Under the pieces are notes generated by a model. It had not been told where the DNA came from. It worked only from the letters and a program-made list of their open reading frames with translations, and ran no database searches. This document shows positions 1-7,284 of a stretch of 51,948 nt of DNA, piece after piece. Both the position numbers and the translations under genes were made by a program. The stretch comes from Bryobacterales bacterium (GTDB taxonomy: Bacteria; Acidobacteriota; Terriglobia; Bryobacterales; Bryobacteraceae), in the NCBI GenBank assembly GCA_003167255.1, contig PMTR01000159.1, forward strand, positions 8,131 through 60,078, given 5' to 3'. How positions within the stretch are numbered: position 1 is the stretch's first letter; every line of letters begins with the position of its first letter.

Positions 1-57
1 AGTGCCGACGCGGCACGCATGAGTGCGTGCGCCACAGAGAGCGGGCTAGCTTCATGA
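1..57 (+). CDS. Possible C-terminal end of an upstream operon gene (partial)
   Basis: Frame 1 is open from the window edge to a TGA at 55-57. That TGA overlaps the hpnA ATG (54-56) in an ATGA arrangement, the same coupling seen at hpnA/hpnG and hpnC/hpnD. The 18 visible codons are too few to identify a family. That it is a hopanoid gene is inferred only from position; an open frame this short could also be chance. Confidence 0.3.
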   Translation, partial: SADAARMSACATESGLAS

Positions 58-1049
58 GACCTGCGCTGGTTACGGGCGCCTCAGGGTTTGTTGGATGGCA
101 TGTGGCGCGCGTGCTGCGGGAGCGTGGTTACCGCGTTCGGGCGCTGGTGCGCGCGGGCAGCCGCGTGGATGCGCTGGATGTCGAACCCGTGACCGGCGAT
201 CTGCGCGACGCCGACTCGCTCGCCCGCGCGGTTGCGGGCTGCGGCCTGGTGTTCCACGTAGCCGCCGACTATCGGCTGTGGGCCAAAGAGCCGGCCGAAC
301 TTTACCGATCGAACGTGGATGGCACGCGCAATCTGCTGGAGGCTTCCCGGCAGGCCGGGGTGGAGCGGGTGGTCTACACCAGCACGGTCGGTTGCATCGG
401 CGTCCCGGATGGCGGCATCGGCAATGAGGACTTGCCGGTGTCTCTCGCAGAGATGGCGGGCGATTATAAGCGCTCCAAGTTTCTGGCCGAACAGGTGGCA
501 CTCGAATTCGCGCGCGGCGGGCTCCCCGTGGTGATTGTCAATCCCACGGCGCCGGTGGGCGATCACGACGTTAAACCCACGCCCACCGGCAAGATCGTGG
601 TGGACTTCCTGAACGGCGACATGCCGGCCTTCATCGATACGGGGCTGAACGTGGTGGATGTGCGGGACACCGCGGAGGGTCACTGGCTGGCGTGCGAGCG
701 TGGGCGCCCGGGCGAGCGCTATATCCTGGGTTCGGAGAACCTGACGCTGGCGCAGATTCTGCAAGAACTGGCTCAAATTACGGGCCGCCGGGCTCCCACC
801 ACGCGGCTGCCGTACGCAGTGGCCTGGTGCGCCGGGGCGTGCAGCACGGCCTGGGCCGGGGTCACCGGGACGCCGCCGCGCATTCCCATGGAAGCCGTGC
901 GCATGGCCAGGAAAAAAATGTGGGTGACCCACGAGAAGGCGCGCCGCGAACTGGGCTTCGCGCCCGGCCCCGCGCGGCAGGCGCTCACCCGCGCGGTCGA
1001 GTGGTTCCAAGGGGCAGGGAGGCGGCCTGTCCAAACGCCGGCGGCATGA
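54..1049 (+). CDS. hpnA: HpnA, hopanoid-associated sugar epimerase-like SDR
   Basis: Extended short-chain dehydrogenase/epimerase of 331 residues, a cytoplasmic NAD(P)-dependent enzyme. The N-terminus carries the nucleotide-binding glycine motif TGASGFVG (residues 7-14). The catalytic Tyr/Lys pair lies in YKRSK (Y138, K142), after a TSTVG active-site strand. The family is recognised as HpnA because it is the first of a run that continues with hpnG, hpnC and hpnD. HpnA is known from hopanoid clusters, but its substrate is not firmly defined; a role in side-chain maturation is inferred. The ATG at 54 is preferred over an in-frame start at 27 because it begins right at the Rossmann strand and overlaps an upstream stop. 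Confidence 0.85.
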   Translation: MRPALVTGASGFVGWHVARVLRERGYRVRALVRAGSRVDALDVEPVTGDLRDADSLARAVAGCGLVFHVAADYRLWAKEPAELYRSNVDGTRNLLEASRQAGVERVVYTSTVGCIGVPDGGIGNEDLPVSLAEMAGDYKRSKFLAEQVALEFARGGLPVVIVNPTAPVGDHDVKPTPTGKIVVDFLNGDMPAFIDTGLNVVDVRDTAEGHWLACERGRPGERYILGSENLTLAQILQELAQITGRRAPTTRLPYAVAWCAGACSTAWAGVTGTPPRIPMEAVRMARKKMWVTHEKARRELGFAPGPARQALTRAVEWFQGAGRRPVQTPAA

Positions 1050-1741
1050 AGCTACTCCTGATCGCCTCCGATCGAATGGAATTCCAAGGCCTGCTGCGGC
1101 GCTGCGAGCAGGCGCGGCGAGCCGCTTTGTCCGTCGATTGGTCGCGTCTGGCGCGCCTGGGAGACCATGACGTGTTGCTGGCCGCCAACGGAGTGGGCGC
1201 CCGGCGAGCCGCCTCCGCGGTGGAGGCAGCCTCGGCCATCTTTGCGGCCGACGCCATTGTCAGCCTGGGCTTCTGCGGCGCCCTGGCGCCGGAACTGGGG
1301 GTGGCCGATATTGTAGTGGCGACCGGCATCGCAGCCGGGGACGGTAGCTTCGCCGCCCAACTGCCCGCTGCGGCGCCGGTGCACCGTGCCGGAACGGTCT
1401 GCTCGCTCGATCATGTGGCCCGCACCACCGAAGAAAAGCGCGGGCTCCACGCCGCGGGCTCGATCGCGGTCGAAATGGAAGCCGCGGGAGCAGCCGCGCG
1501 GGCCGAAGCGCTGGGCCGCCCGTTCTACTGCATAAAGGCGGTCACCGATCTGGCTGGCGAAAGCATGGCCAACGACTTCAATTCCGCACTGCGTCCCGAC
1601 GGTCACTTCGATACAATGGAGATTCTAAGGTCTTCATTGCGCCATCCTTCGGTCCGGCTCCCGGAGCTGTTCCGTTTGCGCAAGCGTTGTCTGCGAGCTT
1701 CTGAAGTTCTGGGAGATTTTGTTGCCGATTGCCGATTCTGA
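1046..1741 (+). CDS. hpnG: HpnG, hopanoid-associated nucleoside phosphorylase-like protein
   Basis: A 231-residue phosphorylase-superfamily protein. In bacteria with characterised hopanoid pathways HpnG acts on adenosylhopane, removing adenine on the way to ribosylhopane. Visible motifs are a central VSLGFCGAL strand-loop and the VEMEAAG ribose-site motif typical of purine nucleoside phosphorylases. The ATG at 1046 overlaps the hpnA stop (ATGA), so I take it rather than the longer open frame starting inside hpnA. The last residues overlap possible early starts of the next gene. No signal peptide, so it should be cytosolic. Confidence is high for the family and good for the pathway because of the flanking hpn genes. 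Confidence 0.82.
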   Translation: MKLLLIASDRMEFQGLLRRCEQARRAALSVDWSRLARLGDHDVLLAANGVGARRAASAVEAASAIFAADAIVSLGFCGALAPELGVADIVVATGIAAGDGSFAAQLPAAAPVHRAGTVCSLDHVARTTEEKRGLHAAGSIAVEMEAAGAAARAEALGRPFYCIKAVTDLAGESMANDFNSALRPDGHFDTMEILRSSLRHPSVRLPELFRLRKRCLRASEVLGDFVADCRF

Positions 1742-1763
1742 GGTGAGCGCCATACCGGAAACC

Positions 1764-2819
1764 ATGCACGCGGCCGTGTATCGAGGCCAGAGTGCGGTTC
1801 AGGTGGAGGAAGTTCCGACGCCGCGGATCGGCGCGGGCGAAATCCTCATTCGCGTGGAAGCTTGCGGCATCTGCCATACCGACCTGAAGAAGATCGAGCA
1901 CAACCTGCTCGCGCCGCCGCGCATCTACGGGCACGAAACCGCCGGCACGGTGGCCGCCGCCGGCTCCGGGGTCACCCGTTTCCAGCCGGGCGACCGCGTG
2001 GTGGCCTTCCACCATATCCCGTGCCTGGAATGTTTCTACTGTAGATGCAACCACTATGCACAGTGCGCCGTTTATAAGAAAGTGGGGATTACAGCGGGCT
2101 TCGAACCGGCCGGGGGCGGGTTTGCGCAGTACGTGCGGGTGATGGATTGGATTGTGGAGCGCGGCGTCGAAAAGATTCCCGATGGCGTACCTTTCGAGCG
2201 CGCGACGTTGGTGGAGCCGCTCAACACTTGTTTGAAGGCCGTGGTGGAATGCGACCCGCAGCCCGGCGAGCGAGTGGCCATTTTGGGGCAAGGGCCCATC
2301 GGGCTGATGTTCACGATGCTGGTGAATCGCTCGGGAGCGCGCATCGCCGCCACCGATACGATCCCCGAGCGGCTGCGCCTGGCAGCGCGGTGTGGCGCGG
2401 AATTCGCTTGGGACCCGCGGCGGACCAATGTGCCCGAGGAAATCAAGCGTCTCACCGGCGGGCGCGGGGCGGACCTGGTGATAGTAGCGGTATCGGTTCC
2501 GGGGATTGTCGATCAGGCCATGGCCTGCTCGCGGCCGGGCGCACGCATCCTGCTGTTTGCCCAGACTTCCGCCACGGAGCGCGTTGAGGTCTCCGGCGCC
2601 GACATTTGTGTTTTCGAACGCACCCTGTTCGGATGTTATAGTGCTTCTGTGGATTTACAAAAAGAATCCGCAAATCTGGTTTTCGGCGGCGAGTTGCCCT
2701 TGCAGGAACTGATCTCGCATCGGCTGCCGCTGGCGGAAATCCGGTCGGGGATTGATCTGGCGTTGCATCCCGGGCCCAAATCATTGAAAATAATCGTTCA
2801 GCCACAGAGGTGGTCATAG
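1764..2819 (+). CDS. Zinc-dependent medium-chain dehydrogenase, hopanoid operon, first copy
   Basis: Alcohol/polyol dehydrogenase of the MDR superfamily, 351 residues from the ATG at 1764. The catalytic zinc site is represented by CGICHTD and GHET. The four-cysteine structural zinc lobe follows as CLECFYCRCNHYAQC. The coenzyme-binding motif is GQGPIG. In-frame TTG (1719) and GTG (1743) codons upstream would add an N-terminus the family does not have. It lies between hpnG and hpnC on the same strand, followed after one base by a second, different MDR enzyme. Such dehydrogenases are not among the named hpn genes. A role in oxidising or reducing a hopanoid side chain is inference from position; the substrate cannot be read from the sequence. 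Confidence 0.85.
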   Translation: MHAAVYRGQSAVQVEEVPTPRIGAGEILIRVEACGICHTDLKKIEHNLLAPPRIYGHETAGTVAAAGSGVTRFQPGDRVVAFHHIPCLECFYCRCNHYAQCAVYKKVGITAGFEPAGGGFAQYVRVMDWIVERGVEKIPDGVPFERATLVEPLNTCLKAVVECDPQPGERVAILGQGPIGLMFTMLVNRSGARIAATDTIPERLRLAARCGAEFAWDPRRTNVPEEIKRLTGGRGADLVIVAVSVPGIVDQAMACSRPGARILLFAQTSATERVEVSGADICVFERTLFGCYSASVDLQKESANLVFGGELPLQELISHRLPLAEIRSGIDLALHPGPKSLKIIVQPQRWS

Positions 2820-2832
2820 AGTGGACAATCAC

Positions 2833-3861
2833 ATGATGGCTGCTGTGCTATACGGCAAGGAACACTTGCAAGTGGAGCCGGTAGCCGTTCCGACAATCGC
2901 GAGCGGTGACATTCTCGTACGGGTAAAAGTGGCGTTGACGTGCGGTACGGACGTCAAGGTTTTCCGCCGCGGTTATCACGCGCGTATGATCGTGCCGCCC
3001 GCCGTGTTCGGGCATGAACTGGCCGGCGACGTTGTCGCCGTGGGCTCGGGTGTCACGCGGTTCAGCATCGGGCAGCGAGTGGTGGCAGCCAATTCCGCGC
3101 CCTGCGAAAACTGTTTCTTCTGCCGGCGCGGTTTGCAGAACCTGTGCGAAGACCTGCTTTTCAACAACGGTGCGTACGCCGAATACATCCGCATTCCGGC
3201 ACGCATCGTGGAGCGTAATACTTATGTGATTCCGGCGCAGGTGGGGTATCGCGACGCCGCGCTGGTGGAGCCGCTGGCCTGCGTGATTCGCGGCCTGGAA
3301 GAGACTGCTCCGCAGGCGGGCGATACGGTGGCGGTGATCGGACTCGGGCCAATTGGCCTGATGTTCGTGAAACTGGCCAAACTATACGGCTGCCGGGTCA
3401 TCGCCGTGGGACGGCGCAGGCAGCAACTCGAGCGGGCGCAAGCGCTGAGCGCCGACGAGCTGATTGTGGGCAACGATCATTCGAACCCCGTCGAGACCAT
3501 CCGCAACTCGACCCACGGGCGCGGCGTGGATATCGCCATTGAGGCCGTGGGCAAGCCGCAGACCTGGGAGTGGGCGGCCAACATGGTGCGCCGCGGCGGC
3601 ACCGTAAACTTCTTCGGCGGCTGCCCCAACGATAGCCGCGTGCACCTGGATACGGCCCTGCTGCACTATTCCGAGATCACGTGCAAGGCGAGCTTCCACC
3701 ATACCCCGACGTTCATCCGCAAGGCGCTCGACCTCATCAGCGCCGGCCACATTACCGCGTCGTTCTTCGTCAATCGCGAGGAGCCGCTGGCCAATCTTCT
3801 GGAAGTGATGCGCCACCTGATGAGCCATAACGGCCACCTGAAGACGGCGATCGTGCCATAG
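2833..3861 (+). CDS. Zinc-dependent medium-chain dehydrogenase, hopanoid operon, second copy
   Basis: Second MDR alcohol dehydrogenase, about 342 residues, closest in layout to threonine/sorbitol dehydrogenases. It has the catalytic zinc motif CGTDVK and GHELAG, structural cysteines in CENCFFCRRGLQNLC and the nucleotide-binding motif GLGPIG. Start options are GTG 2821, ATG 2833 and ATG 2836; I choose 2833, since the conserved first strand (MAAVLYG) begins here. The preceding gene stops at 2819, so the two dehydrogenases are surely co-transcribed. They differ clearly in sequence, so this is not a recent tandem duplicate. The function is probably paired with the first copy, on the same or sequential oxidation states. 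Confidence 0.85.
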   Translation: MMAAVLYGKEHLQVEPVAVPTIASGDILVRVKVALTCGTDVKVFRRGYHARMIVPPAVFGHELAGDVVAVGSGVTRFSIGQRVVAANSAPCENCFFCRRGLQNLCEDLLFNNGAYAEYIRIPARIVERNTYVIPAQVGYRDAALVEPLACVIRGLEETAPQAGDTVAVIGLGPIGLMFVKLAKLYGCRVIAVGRRRQQLERAQALSADELIVGNDHSNPVETIRNSTHGRGVDIAIEAVGKPQTWEWAANMVRRGGTVNFFGGCPNDSRVHLDTALLHYSEITCKASFHHTPTFIRKALDLISAGHITASFFVNREEPLANLLEVMRHLMSHNGHLKTAIVP

Positions 3862-3872
3862 CGGCGGTCGAG

Positions 3873-4787
3873 ATGCCGCTTCCGCCAGTCGAGTTCGTCC
3901 GCTCGCCGGAGGCCTTGCAGCGCATCTACACGCCCGCCGAGGCTTGCGATTACACGCGCTGGCTGGCCACCCACCACTACGAGAACTTCCACGTGGTGAG
4001 CTTCCTGCTGCCCAAGCGCCTGCACCAGGATTTCTATAACGTCTACGCGTATTGCCGTTGGGCCGACGACCTGGGCGATGAAATGGGCGACCGCGCCGAA
4101 AGCCTGCGACTGCTCGACTGGTGGCGTTCGGAACTGGACGCCATGTACGAGGGGCGCGCCACGCATCCGGTGTTTGTGGCGCTGCTCGATACGGTGCGGA
4201 AGTACGGAATTCCCCGCCAGCCTTTTGCCGACCTGATCCAGGCTTTCGTGCAGGATCAAACCGTCACGCGCTACCGCAATTGGGACGAAGTGCTGGCTTA
4301 TTGCCGGTATTCGGCGAATCCGGTGGGCCGCCTGGTGCTCTTTCTGTGCGGCTATTCCGATGAGGAGCGGCAACGGCTTTCCGACGCCACCTGCACGGCT
4401 CTGCAGCTCGCCAACTTCTGGCAGGACGTGACGGTGGATCTCCTGAAGGACCGCATCTATATCCCGCTCGACGTGATGGAGCGGCACGGATACACGGTGG
4501 AGGAATTGTTGGCGCGCCGCTTCACGCCGGCGTTTCGGGAAGTGATGCGCGAACTCGTCGAGAAGGCGCGCGGCCTGTTTCTGGAAGGCGCGCCGCTGGC
4601 CGGGCGACTGGAACGGCGGCTGGCTCTCGATATCGATCTCTTCAGCCGCGGGGGCATGCGCGTGTTGCGGAAGATCGAAGAGCAGGGCTATGACGTGCTG
4701 GCCGCGCGCCCCGCCATTTCGAAAGCCGAGCGCATGGGCCTGCTGCTGGGGTCCCTGTTTCGGGTGGCCTTCAGGCGGGCGGCATGA
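3873..4787 (+). CDS. hpnC: HpnC, hydroxysqualene synthase
   Basis: Squalene/phytoene synthase-family protein of 304 residues. In the HpnCDE route HpnD makes presqualene diphosphate from two farnesyl diphosphates, HpnC converts it to hydroxysqualene, and HpnE reduces that to squalene. The first aspartate-rich motif DDLGDE is at residues 65-70; the second is NFWQDVTVD near 181-189, the form typical of HpnC rather than HpnD. The ATG at 3873 follows the dehydrogenase stop by 11 nt. The stop overlaps the hpnD start as ATGA, indicating translational coupling. Assignment is strong from the paired motifs and gene order. Confidence 0.92.
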   Translation: MPLPPVEFVRSPEALQRIYTPAEACDYTRWLATHHYENFHVVSFLLPKRLHQDFYNVYAYCRWADDLGDEMGDRAESLRLLDWWRSELDAMYEGRATHPVFVALLDTVRKYGIPRQPFADLIQAFVQDQTVTRYRNWDEVLAYCRYSANPVGRLVLFLCGYSDEERQRLSDATCTALQLANFWQDVTVDLLKDRIYIPLDVMERHGYTVEELLARRFTPAFREVMRELVEKARGLFLEGAPLAGRLERRLALDIDLFSRGGMRVLRKIEEQGYDVLAARPAISKAERMGLLLGSLFRVAFRRAA

Positions 4788-5623
4788 GGAACGCCATCGA
4801 TCAATCGTACGAATACTGCCGGCGCGTGGCGCGCCGCCGCGCCAAGAATTTCTACTATTCGTTCGTGCTGCTCTCCGGCCCGCAGCGCCGCGCCATGTGC
4901 GCCATTTACGCCTTCATGCGCTACTGCGACGATCTGAGCGATGAACCGGGCGCCACCCGGGCCGCCTTGGAACGCTGGCGCGCCGAATTGGAAGATGCGC
5001 TGGCCGGCCGTTTTAGCGGCCACCCGGTGTGGCCCGCTTTCCATCACACGGTTCGGCGTTTTCGCATCCCGCACGAGTATTTCCGCGCGATGATCGACGG
5101 GGTCCTCTCGGATCTGGAGCCGCGCGAGTTTGAGACCTTCGATCAGCTCTATCGCTATTGCTACCAGGTGGCGTCGGTGGTGGGGCTGACCACGGTCCAC
5201 ATCTTCGGCTTCGATACGCGCAGCGCGCTGCCGCTGGCCGAAAAATGCGGCGCGGCGTTCCAGTTGACCAATATCCTGCGGGATATCCGGGAGGACGCCG
5301 CGCGCGGCCGGATTTATCTGCCCGCCGAAGACCTGCGCCGCTTCGGGCTCACCGCCGGAGACATCCACGCAGGCAAGCGCAGCCAGCCTTTTCTCAACAT
5401 GATGCGATTCGAAGCGGAGCGGGCGCGCGCCTACTACAACGAGTCGCTGCCGCTGCTCGACCTGATTCACCCGCGCAGCCGCCCATCGCTGTGGGCGCTG
5501 ATCGGTATCTATTCGCGGCTGCTGGAGCGGATTGTGGAGAGCGATTATGACGTCTTCGCGCGGCGCGTGCGGCTGCCGCTGTGGGAAAAGTCATGGATTG
5601 TGGTGAGGGCGCTGGTGGGGTAG
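4784..5623 (+). CDS. hpnD: HpnD, presqualene diphosphate synthase
   Basis: A 279-residue head-to-head prenyl synthase condensing two farnesyl diphosphates into presqualene diphosphate. The two Mg-diphosphate binding motifs are DDLSDE (residues 49-54) and NILRDIRED (163-171), followed by ARGRIYLP, a signature of the HpnD branch. The start overlaps the hpnC stop. Unusually, the flavoprotein HpnE, which normally completes the trio, does not follow; a toxin-antitoxin pair starts 45 nt downstream. HpnE and the squalene-hopene cyclase must be elsewhere, probably upstream of the window or at another locus, or be replaced. Confidence 0.92.
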   Translation: MRNAIDQSYEYCRRVARRRAKNFYYSFVLLSGPQRRAMCAIYAFMRYCDDLSDEPGATRAALERWRAELEDALAGRFSGHPVWPAFHHTVRRFRIPHEYFRAMIDGVLSDLEPREFETFDQLYRYCYQVASVVGLTTVHIFGFDTRSALPLAEKCGAAFQLTNILRDIREDAARGRIYLPAEDLRRFGLTAGDIHAGKRSQPFLNMMRFEAERARAYYNESLPLLDLIHPRSRPSLWALIGIYSRLLERIVESDYDVFARRVRLPLWEKSWIVVRALVG

Positions 5624-5655
5624 GCGGACGAGCTTGAGCGAGCGGGAATGAGCGA

Positions 5656-5676
5656 ATAGTCATATAATATGACTAT
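5656..5676. promoter_or_regulatory. Perfect 21-bp palindrome over promoter and start of Phd/VapC
   Basis: ATAGTCATAT and ATATGACTAT form a perfect 10-bp inverted repeat around one central base. It contains the -10 box TATAAT (5663-5668) and ends on the antitoxin start codon ATG 5675. This is the expected place for an autoregulatory operator bound by the Phd-type antitoxin or the TA complex; occupancy would block RNA polymerase directly. Binding itself is inferred. Confidence 0.75.
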
Positions 5677-5890
5677 GGCGAGATTCAGTCTGTCCGAAGC
5701 CAAGGCGCGGTTTTCCGAGTTGGTTCAAAAAGCCATGCTCGGCGAAGAGGTCATCGTCGCTAAAGAAAACAAGGCCGTGGTTCGGATCGTGCCGATCAAA
5801 CCGGTACGACGGAAGCCGGGGACTGGGAAAGGCATCTGGATGGCTCCCGATTTTGACGAGCCGCTCGATGACTTCCGGGAGTACCGGTAG
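5675..5890 (+). CDS. Phd/YefM-family antitoxin
   Basis: A 71-residue antitoxin. The N-terminus (MARFSLSEAKARFSELVQ) is the classic Phd/YefM DNA-binding fold, followed by VIVAKENKAVVRIVP; the C-terminal tail should wrap the toxin. ATG 5675 is preferred to ATG 5669 because the TATAAT box ends at 5668, so the predicted transcript starts at about 5675 and is leaderless. The stop TAG (5888-5890) shares one base with the GTG start of the PIN toxin. It probably represses its own operon through the palindrome it overlaps. Confidence 0.85.
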   Translation: MARFSLSEAKARFSELVQKAMLGEEVIVAKENKAVVRIVPIKPVRRKPGTGKGIWMAPDFDEPLDDFREYR

Positions 5891-6273
5891 TGGAGCGGGT
5901 TCTGCTTGATACGCATGCCTTCCTGTGGTGGTGCGAGGGTTCTTCTGAACTATCCGGGAAGGCGCGCCGCAGCATCTCACAAGCAGAGTGTTATGTCAGC
6001 CTCGCCAGCTTGTGGGAAATCGCCATCAAGATCAGTCTCGGGAAGTTGAAGCTGCCTGCCAGCTTTGACCGGTACATTCCAGAGCAGATCCTGCTGAACG
6101 GTTTTTCCCGGCTGGAGATCGGGTTCCGCCATATTGCGGGTTGCGCTAAACTGCCGTGGCATCACCGCGATCCATTCGATCGACTGCTTGTGGCGCAGGC
6201 CATTGAAGAAGGCCTGAGCGTGGTTTCACGCGACCCCATATTCGGGCAGTACGGCGTTCAGCGGATCTGGTAG
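5890..6273 (+). CDS. VapC-like PIN-domain toxin
   Basis: PIN-domain ribonuclease of 127 residues. The Mg-binding acidic residues are visible: D7 in LLDTHAFLWW, the Glu of SLWEIAIKISLGKL and the aspartates of RDPFDRLLVAQA, with a final SRDPIF strand. This motif set is the subfamily usually paired with Phd/YefM antitoxins. It starts with GTG overlapping the antitoxin stop, so translation is coupled. VapC toxins generally cut tRNA or rRNA; the target here is unknown. It appears intact. Confidence 0.85.
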   Translation: MERVLLDTHAFLWWCEGSSELSGKARRSISQAECYVSLASLWEIAIKISLGKLKLPASFDRYIPEQILLNGFSRLEIGFRHIAGCAKLPWHHRDPFDRLLVAQAIEEGLSVVSRDPIFGQYGVQRIW

Positions 6274-6360
6274 AGAGAGTGAGCCGGGGCGGGTGACAGA
6301 CGACAAAACCCGATCGTCTGTCCCACGTCTGGCGCAGACGCGATATACTTCTGAAAACCC

Positions 6361-7284
6361 ATGAAGAATGCGTTGTTCATCGCCCTAGGCGTCTTTACTG
6401 TGAGCTACCTCGCGATCTGGCTTACGGCCATCTCCCGGGGAGACGGGCACCGCCGCCGAGCGCCGGGGCCGCTCGATGCGGGGATCGGATTCATCACGAA
6501 TTTTCTGGACACGCTGGGCATCGGCTCGTTTGCCACCACCAGCTCGCTGTTCAAGCTGTGCTCGCTGGTCCCCGACGAGCAGATTCCCGGAACGCTGAAC
6601 GTGGGGCACACGCTGCCCACGGTGACCGAAGCCTTGCTTTTTGTGGGATTGGTGCAGGTGGACCCCACCACGCTGGTTTCCCTGATTGCGGCTTCCGCGG
6701 TGGGAGCGTGGCTGGGGGCCGGAGTGGTGAGCCACTGGCCGCGCCGCAAAGTGCAGATCGGCATGGGGAGCGTGCTGGTGCTGGCGGCGTGCCTGATGCT
6801 GATGAGTTTGTTTCATTGGGGGCCCGGCGGCGGCAACGCCATGGGACTCGCCGGCCCGAAACTGGTGGCGGGCATTTTGGGCAACGCTTTACTGGGCGCG
6901 CTGATGACGCTGGGCATCGGCCTCTATGCGCCTTGCATGATTCTGATTTACCTGTTGGGGATGAATCCGCTGGCGGCCTTCCCCATCATGATGGGGTCAT
7001 GCGCGTTCCTGATGCCGGTGGGCAGCGCCCGGTTCATCCGGACGGGAAGCTACAATCTGAAATCGGCGCTGGGGCTGGCGGCCGGCGGAATCCCCGGGGT
7101 GCTGGTCGCCTTCTATCTGGTGAAGTCACTGCCGCTCGATGCGGTGAAGTGGCTGGTGGTCGCGGTGGTGCTTTATACGTCATTCATGATGCTGCGGTCG
7201 GCGCATAAGGAACGCGGCACGCGGCTGGCGGAAGCGCACGCGGACCTGCCCGCCGATGCCACCGCGGAAGCTTCGGCGGAATAG
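6361..7284 (+). CDS. TauE/SafE-family anion (sulfite-type) exporter
   Basis: A 307-residue polytopic inner-membrane protein with about eight hydrophobic segments. The GxGxGF-like start of the domain (LDAGIGFITNFLDTLGIGSFAT) and the later repeat with GIGLYAPCMILIYLLGMNP fit the two-repeat TauE/SafE permease fold, which exports sulfite, sulfoacetate or related organosulfur anions. The C-terminal tail is soluble and Ala/Glu-rich. A TATACT box lies at 6344-6349, 11 nt before the ATG, so it probably has its own promoter. It sits between two toxin-antitoxin modules with no sulfur genes nearby, so the substrate cannot be inferred. Confidence 0.8.
   Translation: MKNALFIALGVFTVSYLAIWLTAISRGDGHRRRAPGPLDAGIGFITNFLDTLGIGSFATTSSLFKLCSLVPDEQIPGTLNVGHTLPTVTEALLFVGLVQVDPTTLVSLIAASAVGAWLGAGVVSHWPRRKVQIGMGSVLVLAACLMLMSLFHWGPGGGNAMGLAGPKLVAGILGNALLGALMTLGIGLYAPCMILIYLLGMNPLAAFPIMMGSCAFLMPVGSARFIRTGSYNLKSALGLAAGGIPGVLVAFYLVKSLPLDAVKWLVVAVVLYTSFMMLRSAHKERGTRLAEAHADLPADATAEASAE

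Follow-up and report, generated by a model that had tools for sequence, protein, structure and literature searches.

A conserved NAD-type and NADP-type zinc dehydrogenase pair beside hpnG in acidobacterial hopanoid gene clusters, a candidate for side-chain processing after HpnG

A zinc-dependent dehydrogenase beside the hopanoid genes of Acidobacteria is already known. The sections of Sinninghe Damste et al. (2017; PMC5462960) drawn on here describe clusters in which one gene, ug1, is placed after hpnA-hpnG, and a second, ug2, lies before hpnC, is associated with hpnCDE, encodes about 350 aa and frequently carries the annotation of a Zn-binding alcohol dehydrogenase. According to the same sections, ug2 occurs in all species of subdivisions 1 and 3 (SD1 and SD3) and not in Chloracidobacterium thermophilum, and all SD1 and SD3 strains contain bacteriohopanepolyols (BHPs) and/or C30 hopenes. 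The enzyme that converts ribosylhopane to bacteriohopanetetrol (BHT) is not established in the consulted parts of a 2025 paper (PMC12583986), which reports no obvious further candidates near the hpn cluster of Alphaproteobacteria; the open-access literature as sampled here, including parts of PMC12583986, PMC5462960 and PMC5358736, nowhere names a ribosylhopane reductase. Here we analyse two adjacent genes, MDR1 and MDR2, for medium-chain dehydrogenases/reductases (MDRs) in the hopanoid cluster of a Bryobacterales bacterium (assembly GCA_003167255.1), on a 51,948-nt stretch of contig PMTR01000159.1 (positions 8,131 to 60,078), hereafter the window. A ribosylhopane-reducing activity has reportedly been found in Methylobacterium organophilum (Bodlenner et al. 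2015), in a cell-free system by the title of that work. It is the same reaction as the one proposed below for the pair. PMC12583986, which cites that work, does not regard the enzyme as established.

The initial annotation had placed two zinc-dependent MDRs between hpnG and hpnC on the same strand and outside the named hpn set, and both statements hold. MDR1 (1764..2819, plus strand) begins at ATG 1764, ends with the stop codon at 2819 and encodes 351 aa; MDR2 (2821..3861, plus strand) begins at GTG 2821 or ATG 2833 and stops at 3861. The spacing is 22 nt from hpnG to MDR1, 1 nt from MDR1 to MDR2 and 11 nt from MDR2 to hpnC. Both proteins match Pfam ADH_N (GroES-like) and ADH_zinc_N (Rossmann) over the cut-offs, which makes them members of the zinc-dependent MDRs. 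No Hpn family model came near its cut-off for either protein; the only such model among the matches listed was TIGR03366 HpnZ_proposed (91 and 106 versus 328 bits), described as phosphonate catabolism associated. By their positions, ug1 and ug2 probably correspond to MDR1 and MDR2. The consulted sections of PMC5462960 treat them as separate genes of unknown function, whereas they appear here as one NAD/NADP pair; the pairing, the cofactor split, the surviving association with hpnG and the occurrence without hopanoid genes, all reported below, are not described in those sections or in the consulted parts of PMC12583986.

Loss of the association in related genomes, which the initial annotation had regarded as fatal to its proposal, was not the pattern found. 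Among 61 genomes (the window genome and its relatives), 59 had an MDR1 ortholog (373 bits or more; next matches listed at most 181); in the two relatives that lack it, no HpnH or SHC match exceeds the cut-off and HpnG has none. HpnH exceeded its cut-off in 51 of the 59; the eight MDR1-bearing relatives without it are G010, G017, G048, G049, G050, G052, G053 and G055, and two of these, G010 and G017, carry SHC. Our locus sets were mostly gathered via MDR1 and are not random, so that their counts describe the company MDR1 keeps and not all hopanoid clusters. MDR2 follows MDR1 directly and on the same strand in 123 of 127 loci with enough room; the four loci with hpnG-MDR1 and no MDR2 behind are L088, L109, L110 and L111. 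Upstream, hpnG or hpnA precedes MDR1 in 98 of 113 loci with enough room, and hpnG lies within 1.3 kb in 101 of 128; downstream, hpnC or hpnD is found within 5 kb in 84/105 loci with enough room. The gene-neighbourhood observation is therefore sound beyond the single genome, and gene order marks MDR1 and MDR2 as a putative functional unit.

The association with hpnG persists even where the cluster has dispersed. In eight loci, seven from genus g38 plus G047, hpnG-MDR1-MDR2 is intact and the fetched flanks yielded none of the other hpn genes; all eight genomes carry HpnH and SHC elsewhere. That this triplet outlasts dispersal argues for a step that follows HpnG. HpnA does not reach its cut-off in two of these genomes, G038 and G047, which disfavours HpnA as the sole enzyme of that step.

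Both proteins retain intact zinc sites. The zinc-site residues C37, H57, E58 and E151 of MDR1 are present in all 143 full-length loci (138 distinct sequences), and each structural Cys is kept in at least 142. In MDR2, the His, the two Glu and the four structural Cys are found in 131 of 131 full-length loci and the catalytic Cys in 127. The remaining four MDR2 proteins have Asp at that position (TDGTD or MDGTD versus TCGTD; L067 10691-11722, L126 2732-3763, L171 11226-12263 and L185 11076-12113), a possible altered zinc ligand. The Glu of the EP motif is invariant (E151 in MDR1, E149 in MDR2) and lines up with the corresponding EP of threonine dehydrogenase and of ketose reductase. Since Glu-Pro in place of the third catalytic Cys of classical alcohol dehydrogenases marks the polyol dehydrogenase subgroup, the zinc-site pattern assigns MDR1 and MDR2 to that predicted class.

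The two cofactor pockets carry opposite motifs. Acidic and basic residues at the end of the second Rossmann strand predict NAD and NADP choice, respectively. In MDR1 this strand ends in Asp or Glu at position 198 in 138/138 distinct sequences (D198 in the window), an NAD(H)-type pocket, and in MDR2 a non-acidic residue followed by Arg or Lys, the basic NADP(H)-type motif, occurs in 123 of 126 distinct sequences (G-R-R-R after beta 2 in the window). The three distinct MDR2 sequences with Asp at the NADP position (DKE or DRK; L080 7255-8289, L132 10594-11619 and L120 4190-5194) possibly represent a cofactor switch.

Structure and profile comparisons relate both proteins to polyol and other zinc-type dehydrogenases. 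The predicted structures have mean pLDDT (predicted local distance difference test) values of 94.7 (MDR1) and 92.2 (MDR2). With Foldseek, the first match was the ketose reductase 1e3j for MDR2 and a Thermus alcohol dehydrogenase for MDR1; in profile searches, the NADP(H)-dependent 1e3j ranked first for MDR1 (E = 8e-55) and a close second for MDR2 (1e-57). All 50 PDB matches listed for each protein were alcohol, polyol, threonine or related zinc-type dehydrogenases, and nothing but MDR-type dehydrogenases appeared among the matches listed in the fold searches. Ketose reductase and sorbitol dehydrogenase (1e3j, 1pl6) thus resemble the pair in fold and zinc-site pattern, and MDR2 shares their arginine at the NADP position; identity is only 25-30%, and MDR1 differs by its acidic NAD-type residue. 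L-threonine 3-dehydrogenase has the MDR fold and the catalytic and structural zinc motifs in common with both proteins, and its family cut-offs of 380 and 458 bits stand against 147-154 bits for the MDRs (TIGR00692: 147 and 154 versus 458.35). No NCBIfam model came near its cut-off; the top match of both, scyllo-inosose 3-dehydrogenase IolM, matches every member of both alignments, yet reaches only 158 and 168 of the required 450 bits. The equivalog names IolM, threonine dehydrogenase and galactitol-1-phosphate dehydrogenase were accordingly rejected for the MDRs, these curated family matches being too weak.

Beyond the pair's observed cluster position, joint conservation, intact zinc sites, opposite cofactor-pocket motifs and predicted fold, we infer its substrate, direction, division of labour and use for hopanoids as opposed to mere co-retention. 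We tentatively favour, with a probability of about 0.38, a polyol-dehydrogenase couple of opposite cofactor type that acts after HpnG, with MDR2 the likelier ribosylhopane reductase. In this reading, the Terriglobia would have taken MDR1 and MDR2 into their hopanoid gene cluster as one unit. HpnG would remove adenine from adenosylhopane, after which the pair would act on the C5 side chain: MDR2 with NADPH might reduce open-chain ribosylhopane, the C-35 aldehyde, to BHT, and MDR1 with NAD(H) might carry out another redox reaction of that polyol chain. The candidacy of the pair for ribosylhopane reduction is supported because hpnG-MDR1-MDR2 outlasts cluster dispersal and the step has no established enzyme; that of MDR2 in particular is supported by its NADP-type motif. 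The place of the pair among isoprenoid and hopanoid genes and the reported BHPs and/or C30 hopenes of SD3 strains, the subdivision to which the window family probably belongs, point the same way. Taken as a single candidate function of the pair, ribosylhopane reduction is the best one, though at less than even odds.

The distributions of MDR1 and HpnH across the phylum overlap in part. In an even set of 396 Acidobacteriota genomes, MDR1 was found at ortholog level in 65, HpnH over the cut-off in 98 and both in 59, five weak MDR1 matches (211-223 bits) being taken as paralogs and left out of the 65. HpnH is thus present in 59/65 genomes with MDR1 versus 39/331 without it (Fisher p = 9e-37, a value that ignores shared ancestry), and six genomes have MDR1 without HpnH. 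A wider scan covered 84,980 species and gave 545 confirmed relatives, of which the best 80, ranked by a Vicinamibacteria-type first sequence, were retained. Among these best 80, at least three loci have titles from outside Acidobacteriota (Verrucomicrobia, Chthonomonadales and UBP4), and they speak for a role after HpnG in that HpnH and SHC are present in two of the genomes and hpnC-hpnD-hpnE lies downstream in the third. The Verrucomicrobia contig, at just 3.2 kb, is too short to show linkage to hpn genes; in Chthonomonadales the pair and HpnH are on different contigs; in the UBP4 genome, with MDR1-MDR2-hpnC-hpnD-hpnE, no HpnH or SHC was found. A search of 288 Verrucomicrobiota genomes at E <= 1e-60 recovered the known genome and one paralog of 38% identity, and no further ortholog. 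A separate MDR1-like subfamily of 36-39% identity (L089-L093) occurs in Acidobacteriota genomes of 1.9-2.8 Mb; there, tblastn gave no MDR2 and a weak HpnA-like match in L092 alone.

Several observations weigh against ribosylhopane reduction by the pair. In the phylum sample, 39 of the 98 HpnH genomes have no MDR1. The cluster of G324 leaves its contig right after hpnA and the contig of G067 stops 2.4 kb past hpnH, so that the missing MDR1 may be an assembly gap in these two; G293 is an 81% complete draft from an otherwise pair-bearing family, and the remaining 36 genomes fall in other families. Chloracidobacterium thermophilum, which lacks ug2, has BHT derivatives according to the consulted sections of PMC5462960. 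Clusters fetched from these other families still have hpnG without the pair (L102 and L104, shc-hpnH-hpnA-hpnG; L103, shc-hpnH-hpnG), and none of the three shows a clear substitute reductase adjoining hpnG, save for one oxidoreductase in L102. Judged from translations, the genes adjoining hpnG are presumably an LLM-class flavin oxidoreductase in L102, which may be such a substitute, mevalonate-pathway genes in L103 and an amino-acid permease in L104. In family f34 (eight loci), MDR1 is preceded by hpnA instead of hpnG. On the chemical side, a single reduction would not need an NAD-type partner, which would leave two enzymes of opposite cofactor type unexplained, and polyol-type MDRs usually act on secondary alcohols.

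The pair also occurs in genomes where no hopanoid genes were found, and here a general, non-hopanoid role becomes a serious rival. Of 18 pair-bearing entries checked, 15 had no match to either HpnH (E <= 1e-30) or SHC (E <= 1e-15); as G272 and G463 are one genome, these are 14 distinct genomes, seven of them at least 93% complete, the completeness of G454-G463 not being given. G067 and G324, both without MDR1, were added to this check as a contrast. Seven of the best 80 loci (L115-L121, with Vicinamibacteria or Acidobacteria titles) carry the pair away from any hpn gene, and their genomes gave no HpnH or SHC match. Four genomes, G124, G272, G386 and G426, carry the Vicinamibacteria-type pair; G124 has HpnH and SHC elsewhere and the other three do not. 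Six pair-bearing genomes (G426, G457, G458, G459, G460 and G462) gave no squalene/phytoene synthase match. The initial proposal that an alcohol dehydrogenase next to hpnG may reduce ribosylhopane is partly supported: it gains from the conservation of hpnG-MDR1-MDR2 and loses by these 14 genomes and the 39 HpnH genomes without MDR1.

Two genera among the relatives illustrate the point. In g42 (three genomes) and g43 (one), HpnH and SHC were not found genome-wide, while ispH, MDR1, MDR2, hpnC, hpnD and hpnE are retained; two of the three g42 genomes lack hpnG. Between diverged g42 species, the ratio of nonsynonymous to synonymous substitution rates (dN/dS) of MDR2 is about 0.07, and MDR1 has a dN of 0.17-0.18 with dS saturated; in a close species pair, dN/dS is 0.14 for MDR1 and 0.46 for MDR2, from few changes only. 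The pair seems to be under purifying selection in g42 and so to serve some purpose where hopanoids are absent, a further point against an obligate ribosylhopane reductase. An hpnG-like gene persists without SHC and HpnH in g43 and one g42 genome (L052 5922-6977; L053 11073-11819); the g43 open reading frame, at 351 aa, is long and includes additional N-terminal sequence, and we take its neighbour to be alkaline-phosphatase-superfamily-like.

Because the pair is retained where no hopanoid genes were found, the main rival is a redox couple for polyols or sugar alcohols in general, or a shuttle between NADH and NADPH by way of a common polyol/ketone, that in Terriglobia is merely kept with the hopanoid genes, for example for NADPH supply. 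We regard it as quite possible, at distinctly less than even odds. The 14 genomes without HpnH or SHC, six of them also without a squalene/phytoene synthase, agree with it, as do the separate MDR1 branch with no hpn genes nearby and the combination of opposite cofactor types in one unit. Near the pair, four of the 14 loci in a non-hopanoid context (L075, L077, L117 and L118; L076 and L121 are the same genome, counted twice) have what is presumably a proline dehydrogenase, and L075 and L118 a gene that we take to be a WYL-type regulator; these neighbours suggest a different physiological setting. What a general role leaves unexplained is the survival of hpnG-MDR1-MDR2 after cluster dispersal, and the fact that each of the three loci outside Acidobacteriota comes from a genome with hpn or hpnCDE genes also speaks against it.

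The MDR1 phylogeny (84 representatives and three outgroup paralogs) bears on the order of these events. Vicinamibacteria-type MDR1 proteins, mostly from genomes of that title, form a single well supported branch (97). A second branch (90) unites family f34 with the proteins from Verrucomicrobia, UBP4 and Chthonomonadales, and the main operon-linked proteins form a third group (92). The three branches meet at a fork without clear branching order. Both the g42 and the g43 proteins fall inside the main group, which argues that their losses of SHC and HpnH are secondary. A quicker joint tree gave similar groupings for MDR2, with the L078 protein set apart. This topology would fit one entry of the pair into the hopanoid cluster followed by losses; multiple entries may also have occurred.

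Three further explanations are each unlikely. In the first, the pair would act as a redox epimerase: after HpnG, MDR1 would oxidise a hydroxyl of the ribose-derived side chain with NAD+ and MDR2 would reduce the resulting ketone from the opposite face with NADPH, setting BHP stereochemistry. Adjacent, jointly conserved polyol-type dehydrogenases of NAD and NADP type are what this predicts; the zinc-site pattern and the ketose-reductase-like sequence and fold suit secondary alcohols, and NAD/NADP dehydrogenase pairs that interconvert inositol isomers do exist. The configuration of BHT, however, requires no inversion from D-ribose, and the four loci in which an hpnG-adjacent MDR1 has no neighbouring MDR2 do not suit a two-enzyme inversion. 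If true, this improbable reading would mean that an old general polyol-inverting module was reused for a membrane lipid and both completes BHPs and sets their stereochemistry in Acidobacteria.

It is similarly doubtful that the pair serves the squalene branch (HpnC/D/E) and not the side chain. MDR1 and MDR2 are kept together with HpnC, HpnD and HpnE in the absence of HpnH and SHC in g42 (where hpnG is lost in two of three genomes), g43 and the UBP4 genome, and the reported association of ug2 with hpnCDE, in the portion of PMC5462960 consulted, points the same way. Yet 56 of 61 relatives have an HpnE match that exceeds the cut-off, among them the window genome and the four genomes of g42 and g43, so that these lack no squalene step. 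Next to hpnG in g38 and G047, the pair has no hpnC or hpnD in the fetched flanks, and six pair-bearing genomes gave no match to such a synthase. Replacement of a missing HpnE by MDR2 is ruled out by the same HpnE finding.

We hold equally little expectation that the pair tailors the cyclitol or sugar head group of composite hopanoids by IolM-like chemistry: scyllo-inosose 3-dehydrogenase is the top NCBIfam match of both proteins, but at about one third of the cut-off, with threonine dehydrogenases scoring nearly as high. Chance neighbourhood in a single genome is ruled out, as the arrangement recurs in many genomes.

The remainder of the window cluster consists of hopanoid genes. The window genome probably belongs to Bryobacteraceae, within SD3. 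Its hpnA (54..1049, plus strand) encodes the hopanoid-associated sugar epimerase, a short-chain dehydrogenase/reductase (TIGR03466, 477 bits, cut-off 367.65; scan started at the upstream GTG 27), and overlaps hpnG (1046..1741, plus strand), the hopanoid-associated phosphorylase/nucleosidase (TIGR03468, 151.3 bits, E = 2.6e-44, under the cut-off of 187.1). Beyond the pair follow hpnC (3873..4787, plus strand, start ATG 3873; squalene synthase HpnC, TIGR03464, 363 bits, cut-off 250.45) and hpnD (4784..5623, plus strand; presqualene diphosphate synthase, TIGR03465, 268.8 bits, E = 3.6e-80, slightly under the cut-off of 278.6). HpnG and HpnD are thus under their NCBIfam cut-offs, yet nothing scores better. 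No HpnG among the 61 genomes, window included, reached the cut-off (57 with a match), and the curated NCBIfam model therefore misses the HpnG type present here. The full order on the contig is ispH-shc-hpnH-hpnA-hpnG-MDR1-MDR2-hpnC-hpnD, with ispH, shc and hpnH upstream of the window and the first gene taken to be ispH from its translation. Common strand and tight spacing suggest that hpnA to hpnD form a single transcript; a promoter scan of positions 1-6400 found no sigma-70-like site, which is weakly informative. The hpnE gene of this genome is located outside the cluster (G000:C169), over its cut-off, and the slot after hpnD that hpnE holds in other lineages is occupied by a PIN-domain gene (5890-6273).

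The occurrence of the same pair where no hopanoid genes were found is a caution against naming enzymes by context alone. The enzyme from ribosylhopane to BHT is unassigned in the consulted parts of PMC12583986, and composite BHPs derive from BHT. With a defined gene pair beside hpnG or hpnA in most loci, split by cofactor type, the question of which enzyme takes this step becomes testable.

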